From Pseudomonas alloputida (lineage in GTDB: Bacteria > Pseudomonadota > Gammaproteobacteria > Pseudomonadales > Pseudomonadaceae): DNA of 64,000 nucleotides. Shown here piece by piece: positions 4,270 to 8,075 of this stretch; position 1 is the stretch's first letter, and every line of letters begins with the position of its first letter. The DNA is taken from positions 1,151,501 through 1,215,500 of the forward strand of contig NZ_CP128540.1 of assembly GCF_021283545.2 (NCBI RefSeq). Reading direction: 5' to 3'. The position numbers and the translations under genes were made by a program. The notes beneath the pieces were generated by a model. That model made no database searches. It saw only the letters and a program-made list of their open reading frames with translations, and was not told the origin of the DNA.

Positions 4270-4737
4270 TCATCTCACTTTCAGCAGATGATCCAGCGAA
4301 AACGCGCCGGCGCCTCGGGCAACCAGGAGCAGCAAGAGCCCTGCCCAGGTCAGGTGGGTGGGCCACGCATCGGGGTAGACGAACACTTCGATCACCAACG
4401 TCATGCCCAGCAGTGCCAGCGCCGATAGCCGGGTCATCAGCCCGAGCACCAGCAATAGCGGGAACAAGTGCTCAGCGTAGGCGGCCAGGTGCGCTGCAAG
4501 CCAGGGCGAGAGTAGAGGCAGCGCGTACTCGGTGCGGAACAGCTCATAGGTGCCGGGTGTAAGGGTGAGGAAACCCTCCACTTTGGTGCGTCCGGAAAGA
4601 AAGAATATCGAGGCGATCCCGAACCGGGCGACCAGGCACAACAGGTCATCGCTCAAACGGCGCTCGAGGCTCTGTGCAACGTGGTTCCAGGCGCGCCGCA
4701 GGCTGCTGGCCGGAGGTGTGAAATCGGCACTAGCCAT
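4270..4737 (-). CDS. DoxX family membrane protein (BufD-like)
   Basis: A 155-residue inner membrane protein of the DoxX/DoxD family. Hydrophobic segments are visible around residues 35-50 ([13 protein letters not shown]), 75-100, 103-120 and 125-145, giving about four membrane spans. DoxX proteins are frequent fourth members of operons that make bufferin-type copper-binding peptides, where a redox or quinone-linked role is proposed but not settled. The ATG at 4735-4737 lies inside the end of the preceding DUF2063 gene (8-nt overlap), which shows tight translational coupling. The gene is last in the operon and is followed by the 37-nt palindrome and a terminator. Confidence 0.85.
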
Positions 4738-5503
4738 GGTGGTGTTCTCCTGTGAAGGCGAGTGAGCGAAACGCCTGGGCCGTCATCAGGCGCCCGAGCA
4801 TCTCGGTGAAATCCAGGTCGGTTTCAGCGTGTCGCGCCAGGTCCGAGGCCTGCATCAGCGACTGTCCGGCAGCACAGGCCTTGAGGAACGCATGGCCACC
4901 TTTTCCCAGTGGCTGGTGGCATACGCCATCAGCGGTGCCGACAAACAGCACCCCTTCGCCCACCCATGGCTGGTCATCGGGCCAGGCAACCTGCTCGCGG
5001 GCGCAGCGCCACAGGGTGTACACAGGGTGCGCCTCGCACCAGTACCAGCGAGCACTGGCACGGGGGTGCAAGCAACCGTGATCAAGATCGCTGGGGGTCA
5101 TGCCTGCCAGTTCGACAAGGTTCAGGCACGTTTCGTACGGCGCACTGAAGGCTTCTGTCCAACGCAGGTCCAGGCGGGCGACTTCCGCCAGATACGGCAC
5201 AGCGTGCTGTGACTGAATGTCTTCGAGGAAATCCGGGAAGGTCGCGCCGTAGCAGATCAGCCGGGGATCGCTGGGGGGGAATTGCCGCGCATAGATTGCC
5301 GCGGTCTCGTCCATCCAGGCGCGCCCGACGAGTGTGCACACGCTCGGAAAGTTTGCGCGCAGCGCATCCACGCAGCCGGCCAACACCGTGTTGCGATAAA
5401 CCGCGAACGCCGCTTGTTCGGTCACGCCCGCAAGCTGGGGAGCGGGACGGGAATAGAGTGCCTCGATGAACGCTTGCTGGAACTGACCAAGGGAAAGGTT
5501 CAT
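4730..5503 (-). CDS. DUF2063 protein, putative MNIO partner (BufC-like)
   Basis: A 257-residue cytoplasmic protein of the DUF2063 (HvfC/BufC) family. The N-terminal domain ([11 protein letters not shown], then a segment with [20 protein letters not shown]) is typical. In bufferin systems this partner binds the precursor peptide and presents it to the DUF692 enzyme. The start is placed at ATG 5501-5503, which overlaps the stop of the DUF692 gene as ATGA; a longer reading with six more residues is possible but less likely. It also overlaps the DoxX gene at its 3' end, so the operon is compact. Nothing in the frame is broken. Confidence 0.88.
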
Positions 5504-6349: not shown

Positions 6350-6636
6350 TCAAGACTTGATAGGTGTCAGCGAGCCCATGCCGGCGGGTGTCTTGATCGA
6401 TGTGCAGGTGCCGGCGGGGACGTTTTTCCAGTGCATGCCGTCGTAGTCCTTCTTCCCACTGCCAGCGCAGCTGGTGCCGGCGCCGGCCTTGCAATCGTTC
6501 TTCCTGCCATGGCGACGCCGTAGCATTTTTCCATGGCAGCGCCATTGCCTGCGGGTTGCGTGCTGTCGGCCGCCATGGCGGCGCCTGCAAGCGTGGCAAG
6601 CGCGAGTGCTGCGGTGGTGAGGGCGAGGGTTTTCAT
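6350..6636 (-). pseudogene. Bufferin-type precursor (DUF2282/BufA1-like), one-base frameshift
   Basis: The start ATG (6634-6636), with AGGAGA upstream, opens a signal peptide ([22 protein letters not shown], cleavage near residue 23) and the motif MEKCYG with Cys38. After codon 45, between positions 6502 and 6503, one base is missing compared with the family pattern. The next frame continues AGKNDCKAG, TSCAG, the DYDG/W segment and GTCTS to a natural stop at 6350. The intact protein would have 95 residues and four cysteines at 38, 49, 57 and 78. As written, translation instead gives 89 residues with an unrelated basic C-terminus ending at 6367. The cause may be a true mutation or a sequencing error; no standard slippery heptamer is present. 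Confidence 0.85.
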
Positions 6637-6689
6637 GGTCAATCTCCTGAGAGTGTGGCCGTGGTCTATACCGGCGGCTCATGGAGTAA

Positions 6690-6716
6690 TTCGTGCCTTG
6701 CGTAAAACGGGTTACA
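6690..6716 (-). promoter_or_regulatory. ECF-type promoter of the bufferin operon
   Basis: The minus strand reads TGTAACC, then 16 nt, then CGAA. It is 54 nt upstream of the precursor start codon. The same two boxes with the same spacing occur in front of the divergent sigma gene (6843-6869), as expected for an ECF sigma factor that drives its own operon and its target. Confidence 0.75.
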
Positions 6717-6842: not shown

Positions 6843-6869
6843 TGTAACCCAGGCGACCCATGCAGCGAA
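6843..6869 (+). promoter_or_regulatory. ECF-type autoregulatory promoter overlapping the sigma gene start
   Basis: TGTAACC at 6843-6849 is followed after exactly 16 nt by CGAA at 6866-6869, identical in boxes and spacing to the promoter of the divergent operon. The -10 box covers codons 3-4 of the apparent sigma reading frame. Transcription from here would begin near 6876, after the ATG at 6860. Confidence 0.68.
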
Positions 6870-7444
6870 CTAACTCACAGGATGAGCTCGAGGCTCGCGA
6901 GGCCCGGTTGAAAGCACTGTTGCTTCAGGGGCTGACAGGCGACCAGCTGGCCTATCAGGATTTTCTTGGCACGCTTGCGCTGCATGTACGTGCGTTTCTG
7001 CGCAGCCGTCTGAGCAGGCGCCCGGCCGAGATAGAGGACATGGTGCAGGATGTGCTACTGGCGGTGCATAACGCGCGCCACACTTACCAGCCGCAGCAGC
7101 CTTTGACTGCCTGGGTGCAGGCGATTGCCCGTTACAAGCTGGCGGATCATCTGCGAAGTGTTTCACGTCGCGACGCCCGGCATGATGTGCTGGACGATGA
7201 TGCGCAACTGTTTGCCGTCTCGGAGGTTGAATCAGCCGAGGCCAGCCGAGACCTGACCAAGCTGCTCAAACAGCTGCCAGAGCGGCAACGACTGCCGATT
7301 GTTCATGTCAAGCTGGAGGGGTTGTCTGTCGAAGAGACGGCACAACTTACCGGGCTTTCCAGTTCAGCGGTAAAGGTTGGGATACATCGAGGTCTGAAAG
7401 CGCTATCCAGGCTGATTGGAGGAGCCAACAACCATGAAGACTGA
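6860..7444 (+). CDS. ECF sigma factor (SigF-like, bufferin-associated)
   Basis: A 194-residue sigma-70 family factor with region 2 (YQDFLGTLALHVRAFLRSRL and EIEDMVQDVLLAVH, about residues 32-75) and region 4 (LPERQRLPIVHVKLEGLSVEETAQLTG, about 140-175). It resembles the SigF group that partners DUF1109 membrane anti-sigmas and controls metal-responsive bufferin operons in Caulobacter. The gene overlaps the anti-sigma gene by 11 nt. The ATG at 6860 lies inside a predicted self-promoter, so the real start may be the in-frame TTG at 6908 (giving LKALLLQGLTGDQ, which matches where related proteins begin) or a second promoter may exist further upstream. Confidence 0.87.
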   Translation: MQRTNSQDELEAREARLKALLLQGLTGDQLAYQDFLGTLALHVRAFLRSRLSRRPAEIEDMVQDVLLAVHNARHTYQPQQPLTAWVQAIARYKLADHLRSVSRRDARHDVLDDDAQLFAVSEVESAEASRDLTKLLKQLPERQRLPIVHVKLEGLSVEETAQLTGLSSSAVKVGIHRGLKALSRLIGGANNHED

Positions 7445-8075
7445 CGATTTGATTGCCTTGCTGGCCGCAGGCGAAGGGCCAGTGCCGCGCCACGCCGTTG
7501 GCAGGCGGATGGCAGTGGCTGCGCTGGGCGGGCTGACCGCAGCACTGCTGCTGACTATTACCCTTTACGGTGTACGCAGTGATATCACAGAGGTCGCACA
7601 AACCCCGTTGTTCTGGGGCAAAGTCGCCTTTCCAACCAGCTTGGCGTTGATCGGGCTGTGGTTGACGAGCCGCTTGGCCAGGCCAGGGGGGAAGGGTGCT
7701 GCAGGCTGGAAGATGCTCGGCTTGCCACTGCTGCTGGTCTGGTGCGGGGCGGCGGTGAGTATCGCCGGGGCGCCTGTGGATGCGCGCGCCGACCTGTTGT
7801 TCGGGCGCACATGGCGTACCTGCGCACTGAATATCGCGTTGCTGTCGGTGCCGGCCTTTGTCACCGTGTTCTGGGCGCTGAAAGGCCTGGCGCCGACCCG
7901 GTTGCGGCTGGCAGGTGCTGCCGGTGGCCTGCTGGCGGGCTCGAGCGCAACGGTGGCCTACTGCCTGCATTGCCCGGAAATGGGCGTGCCGTTCTGGGGT
8001 GTGTGGTATGTCCTCGGCATGCTCGTGCCGACGGTACTCGGTGCCTGGTGGGGCCCCCGCATGCTGCGTTGGTAG
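7434..8075 (+). CDS. NrsF-type anti-sigma factor (DUF1109), membrane protein
   Basis: A 213-residue protein of the DUF1109/NrsF family with six predicted membrane spans, starting with a short cytoplasmic segment MKTDDLIALLA. Near the C-terminus it has YCLHCPE, the conserved cysteine pair thought to sense metals in NrsF proteins, followed by the last span (VWYVLGMLVPTVLGAWW). It probably holds the sigma factor at the membrane until metal stress releases it. The ATG at 7434 has TGGAGGAG upstream and overlaps the end of the sigma gene, so the two are co-translated. An upstream in-frame start adding six residues is less likely. Confidence 0.88.
   Translation: MKTDDLIALLAAGEGPVPRHAVGRRMAVAALGGLTAALLLTITLYGVRSDITEVAQTPLFWGKVAFPTSLALIGLWLTSRLARPGGKGAAGWKMLGLPLLLVWCGAAVSIAGAPVDARADLLFGRTWRTCALNIALLSVPAFVTVFWALKGLAPTRLRLAGAAGGLLAGSSATVAYCLHCPEMGVPFWGVWYVLGMLVPTVLGAWWGPRMLRW

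Follow-up and report, generated by a model that had tools for sequence, protein, structure and literature searches.

A Buf1-type bufferin operon of Pseudomonas alloputida with a one-base frame break in its precursor gene and intact maturation genes

The Caulobacter operon CC3252-CC3257 (bufABCD), in the available sections of its two descriptions (PMC3511200; PMC12452194), consists of a precursor gene followed by genes encoding a DUF692 enzyme of the MNIO family, a DUF2063 protein and a DoxX protein, with the genes for sigma F and NrsF alongside and a promoter of the form GTAACC-N16-CGAA, which is given there as the sigma-F consensus in Caulobacter (PMC3511200). The modified cysteines of Buf1 are the two central ones, and the outer pair is joined in a disulfide, according to the available part of PMC12452194. 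In the same genus as the present strain, the Pep1 cluster of P. fluorescens contains the same four genes (DUF2282, DUF692, DUF2063 and DoxX), and its precursor is reported as a short peptide in the accessible portion of that account (PMC8719888).

The same gene order, regulators and promoter motif are present in the window, the whole stretch of 64,000 nucleotides that was analysed, which covers positions 1151501-1215500 of a single-contig genome of Pseudomonas alloputida (6.44 Mb, 100% complete, 0.19% contamination). Unlike the Caulobacter operon, and in contrast to the reported Pep1 peptide, the precursor of the window is broken, its frame being lost past the first conserved cysteine. The features of the locus, in window coordinates, are as follows.

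6367..6636, minus strand: bufA, the Buf1/DUF2282 precursor gene, in its current reading 89 aa plus a stop codon (translation, alignment).
6350..6502, minus strand: remaining half of bufA, read in the -1 frame up to the natural stop and containing conserved cysteines II-IV (PF10048 match, alignment).
6500..6505, minus strand: one-base deficit in the Ala-Gly-Lys codons after MEKCYGVAM, the exact base being ambiguous (alignment, codon survey).
6643..6648, minus strand: AGGAGA, a ribosome-binding-like sequence upstream of bufA (sequence).
6690..6715, minus strand: sigma-F-type promoter GTAACC-N16-CGAA of the buf operon (consensus from PMC3511200).
5500..6333, minus strand: bufB, encoding the MNIO/DUF692 maturase of 277 aa, intact (Pfam, NCBIfam, conserved columns).
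4730..5503, minus strand: bufC, encoding the DUF2063 partner protein, intact, with its start at 5503 or upstream (Pfam, locus comparison).
4270..4737, minus strand: bufD, encoding a DoxX-family membrane protein, intact (Pfam, locus comparison).
6860..7444, plus strand: gene encoding an ECF sigma factor of the sigma-F type, intact (Pfam, NCBIfam).
7434..8075, plus strand: gene encoding the NrsF anti-sigma factor (DUF1109), intact (Pfam, NCBIfam).
6844..6869, plus strand: second GTAACC-N16-CGAA, directed toward the sigma-factor gene, whose predicted start codon it overlaps (sequence motif).

The bufA gene begins on the minus strand with an ATG at 6634-6636, and the signal region and an 11-residue stretch are in frame. 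As described in an earlier note on this DNA, a normal start, signal region and MEKCYG motif are followed by the loss of one base at 6502/6503, which appears as a single gap column against the relatives in an alignment of nine sequences. The encoded protein is native to about residue 45 and continues in a foreign tail of 44 residues (7 Arg, 8 Pro and 11 Ala) to the frame-0 stop at 6367-6369. The proposal that the original frame is readable one frame away likewise agrees with the analysis: the -1-frame continuation of 54 residues contains cysteines II-IV, has no internal stop and ends at the natural stop at 6350-6352, and it matches PF10048 (DUF2282) with 59 bits (cut-off 22.4), so that its resemblance to a precursor is not due to chance. 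This was the sole PF10048 match when the whole genome was searched, by which another Buf1 precursor as the substrate of BufB is ruled out; a search of the same genome for the BufA2 family gave no match, its controls likewise matching nowhere. The 89-aa product itself matched no Pfam or NCBIfam model at E<=0.001. Regarding the hallmarks of Buf1 precursors, which also include copper binding by thiooxazole-modified cysteines, DUF2282 together with a Sec signal was found (the former as the PF10048 match, the latter judged by eye), while four conserved cysteines are not contained in the encoded product, in which Cys38 alone is left. The earlier description of an 89-residue product retaining the first cysteine is correct in length and in Cys38, but it overlooked a second cysteine, at position 68, which is non-conserved. 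Two residues of the second half are rare, namely a Gly where 119 matched sequences have Ala (74), Ser (43), Gln (1) or Thr (1), and an Ala found once among 100 matched sequences at its column, and these weakly suggest relaxed constraint on the gene.

Genes encoding the remaining components of the operon are complete. BufB, the adjacent DUF692 maturation enzyme, is full length and scores 363.8 bits with NF050167 (MNIO_BufB, cut-off 310) and 329 bits with PF05114. Of its 91 conserved columns, defined as those with the same residue in at least 95% of the compared sequences, two are odd in the window (leucines replaced by Val and by Met), against a median of one and with 24 of 135 sequences having as many or more. 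All polar residues that reach this level of conservation across the 135 sequences are unchanged, in line with the earlier statement that this enzyme keeps its metal-ligand motifs. No odd residues were found at the conserved columns of BufC (0 of 30) or BufD (0 of 44). BufC, which corresponds to the DUF2063-RRE partner of Buf1 clusters, matches PF09836 with 75.6 bits (cut-off 27.2) and scores 22.7 with the NCBIfam model HvfC, under its cut-off of 142; BufD matches PF07681 (DoxX) with 63 bits (cut-off 23.6). Regarding the regulators, the sigma factor scores 313.7 with PRK12536.1 (cut-off 250), and NrsF scores 247.5 bits with PF06532 (cut-off 26.8) and 151.5 with NF042994, under its cut-off of 300.

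Of the 135 loci in the set described below, 101 have GTAAC-N17-CGAA upstream of bufA; spacings of 15-18 were allowed, and 17 was the only one seen. The pattern is present on both strands in 92 of 134 loci. Since the conserved columns are normal and the promoter motif is intact, no sign of decay is visible in the enzymes or the promoter. The motif directed toward the sigma-factor gene covers the predicted ATG at 6860; autoregulation of the sigma factor is probable, and its actual start codon may be downstream of 6860. A second DUF692 enzyme is encoded elsewhere in the genome (L113, G000:C1:4090213-4090995), also with a cysteine-repeat precursor, which belongs to a different family, the EGKCG/HvfA type with KCGExKCG repeats and an EF-hand-like part, and which is intact by reading.

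For comparison, 169 loci were fetched (29 + 80 + 60), giving 170 with the window, of which 135 are distinct and most are from Pseudomonas; 80 of the 169 were found through BufB, a bias against loci with a broken bufB. The precursor reads through in 132 of the 135 distinct loci, the three broken ones being the window, L107 (P. morbosilactucae MAFF 302030) and L102 (P. viridiflava p8.G8). In L107 (2802-2830) the break in bufA affects the same codon as in the window, the change itself being another one, and the near-identical L109 is intact; in L102 (2703-2970) a stop codon replaces the residue after WK. A shifted frame shared by relatives, which the earlier note had named as evidence against its reading, was looked for in the 135 loci, and that of the window is absent from every other one. 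BufB is complete in all 135 loci, BufC in 129 (one partial, five cut by the locus end) and BufD in 121 (two partial, 12 with no match). With the window left out, as it was picked for its break, bufA is broken in two loci against two to three for the other genes. A tendency of bufA to break in preference to bufBCD is thereby suggested only, and because of this choice and of the BufB-based retrieval of 80 loci, no conclusion on preferential breakage is drawn. A separate locus, L153, contains bufA twice, both copies being full and separated by about 4.3 kb. A search of 398 congeneric genomes and of 38 relatives detected no species closer than about 80-84% DNA identity in the region. Distant matches to bufA or its surroundings occur in 117 plasmid records, including 57 from Escherichia and 9 from Klebsiella, and only distant relatives were present among the plasmid matches listed.

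The best fit to these data, with a probability of roughly 70%, is a complete sigma-F-regulated Buf1 operon in which the precursor has recently lost its function by a one-base deletion, the first of the explanations offered by the earlier note. The loss would be recent because both halves of bufA and all of its neighbours are still readable and normally conserved, the promoter also being intact. By analogy with Caulobacter, metal stress would free the sigma factor from NrsF, leading to transcription of bufABCD; synthesis of BufB and BufC would continue in the absence of their substrate, and the maturation enzymes would be idle. The 89-aa product would have an exported-looking N-terminus and the first conserved cysteine only; as Cys38 alone is kept, neither the central cysteines modified by BufB nor the closing disulfide could be present, and we infer that no bufferin is formed. 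As far as is visible, the cause of the break would be an ordinary one-base deletion, and the second MNIO locus may lessen the cost of the loss.

The main rival to a recent loss is an assembly or base-calling error, by which bufA would be intact in the strain with one base missing from the record only. This explanation, also raised earlier, is possible, but after the analyses described here it is regarded as unlikely, if far from negligible. It would agree with the lack of a lone base in a gene that is normal in other respects and whose operon is intact in its other features, and the break of L107, a draft sequence, at the same codon, with L109 near-identical and unbroken, could hint at an error-prone site; the variant proteins P0001-P0003 discussed below could hold errors too. 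The single contig, completeness and low contamination of the genome argue against it, as does a scan for frame switches covering 464 kb (the window plus twenty stretches of 20 kb each), in which 383,040 scanned bases were in coding segments of at least 450 bases. Three places were flagged, namely the gene of a phage tail assembly chaperone, where a frame change is expected, and two unremarkable junctions between genes, so that the 464 kb yielded no unexplained frame break in a scan that is blind to genes as short as bufA, which it treated as non-coding and left unflagged. Of 63 planted one-base losses, 29 were found, and the chaperone served as a natural positive control. By arithmetic from the scan, unexplained breaks number at most about one per 59 kb (95% confidence), and the errors expected in a gene the size of bufA, a length to which the scan is blind, are far fewer than 0.01. 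The break does not lie at a homopolymer of four or more bases, and about 98 GCCGGC sites occur in the window without a general frame problem, which together with the scan rules out a general misreading of GCCGGC in this genome; a generally poor assembly is unlikely. The flagged chaperone gene (L131, 11819-12289, minus strand) is that of a prophage and is followed by the tail frame in another frame, likely representing a programmed frameshift.

Regarding the close clade, protein searches with the bufA of the window (66 and 43 matches) were both topped by the clusters P0001 (96 aa), P0002 (90 aa) and P0003 (102 aa), which hold 2, 2 and 3 sequences, respectively, and of which other members may be intact. 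Residues 1-45 are identical to the window in all three, signal region included, and the remainders map piecewise onto the window DNA in each of its three frames, which implies near-identical DNA behind these proteins. Their frame changes are at Ala-Gly codon pairs, three in P0001, which re-enters the native frame for 11 residues, two in P0002 and one in P0003. Four conserved cysteines are present in P0003, three in P0002 and two in P0001, with DUF2282 scores of 86.8, 69.3 and 34.7 bits, respectively. These variants are known as proteins alone, from unpolished or unlabelled contigs (lgn for two, blank for P0003), and errors in these contigs are possible. Since P0003 has all four cysteines, the peptide has not been lost from the clade as a whole. 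The BufB of the clade is represented at 97% (P0067, 10 members) and 95% (P0068, 166 members); the best of the other listed matches is at about 80%. Because the frame changes at other places of the gene in three clusters sharing this N-terminus, bufA seems, from the sequences, to be weakly constrained in the clade, and the further frame changes may form a pattern of repeated change, which is suggestive but unproven.

Such a pattern could also arise if bufA of the clade were contingency-like, with repeats at its four Ala-Gly codon pairs giving rise to frequent frame changes by template switching, so that the copper-binding peptide is continued, altered or switched off in sister strains and the maturation machinery is kept ready, which is considered improbable. 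Decidedly improbable is the related proposal that bufA is a mutable locus, in which short repeats, direct and inverted, at the Ala-Gly codon pairs lead to frequent template switches, and strains within one species have different C-terminal halves of the peptide or silence the peptide. The frame changes of the window and of P0001-P0003 are all at Ala-Gly codon pairs, and the bufA of the window contains direct repeats of 9-10 bases at distances of 30 and 66 bases; GCCGGC is spanned by two of these direct repeats. The change in P0003, as deduced from the protein, would perfect a short inverted repeat, which is how quasipalindrome mutation by template switching is described in the available part of PMC7202029, and a template-switch cause for the frame changes of the relatives is conceivable. 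The one-base loss of the window, however, fits no obvious repeat correction, and 132 intact loci among 135 show that mutability is no general feature of bufA.

Programmed or tolerated -1 frameshifting that fuses both halves into a working peptide, the third explanation of the earlier note, is scarcely credible. The -1 frame is open throughout, but no slippery heptamer of the type X XXY YYZ occurs in frame, and slippage on the A5 run at 6530 would forfeit the cysteine of KCYG. As the relatives read straight through, there is no shift to conserve among them, and the two other broken loci have changed differently, so that a conserved shifted frame is ruled out among the 135 loci. That the 89-aa shifted product has a function of its own as an exported Arg/Pro-rich peptide, as its intact signal region and the composition of its tail might suggest, is regarded as extremely unlikely, since no protein with the shifted tail is present among the 66 or the 43 matches and such a composition is usual in the wrong frame of GC-rich DNA.

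The operon itself is thus of a known kind, recent loss of its precursor by a one-base deletion being the preferred reading, and what is new, on suggestive evidence, is the occurrence of frame changes elsewhere in the bufA proteins of the clade. The strain would represent a naturally occurring substrate knock-out, with the maturation enzymes, regulators and promoter of the operon all intact, and would provide a null background for the roles of BufB, BufC and BufD without the peptide and for the share of the peptide in copper tolerance. If the variants of the clade are real, a RiPP precursor would have been repeatedly lost or altered with its maturation genes persisting.
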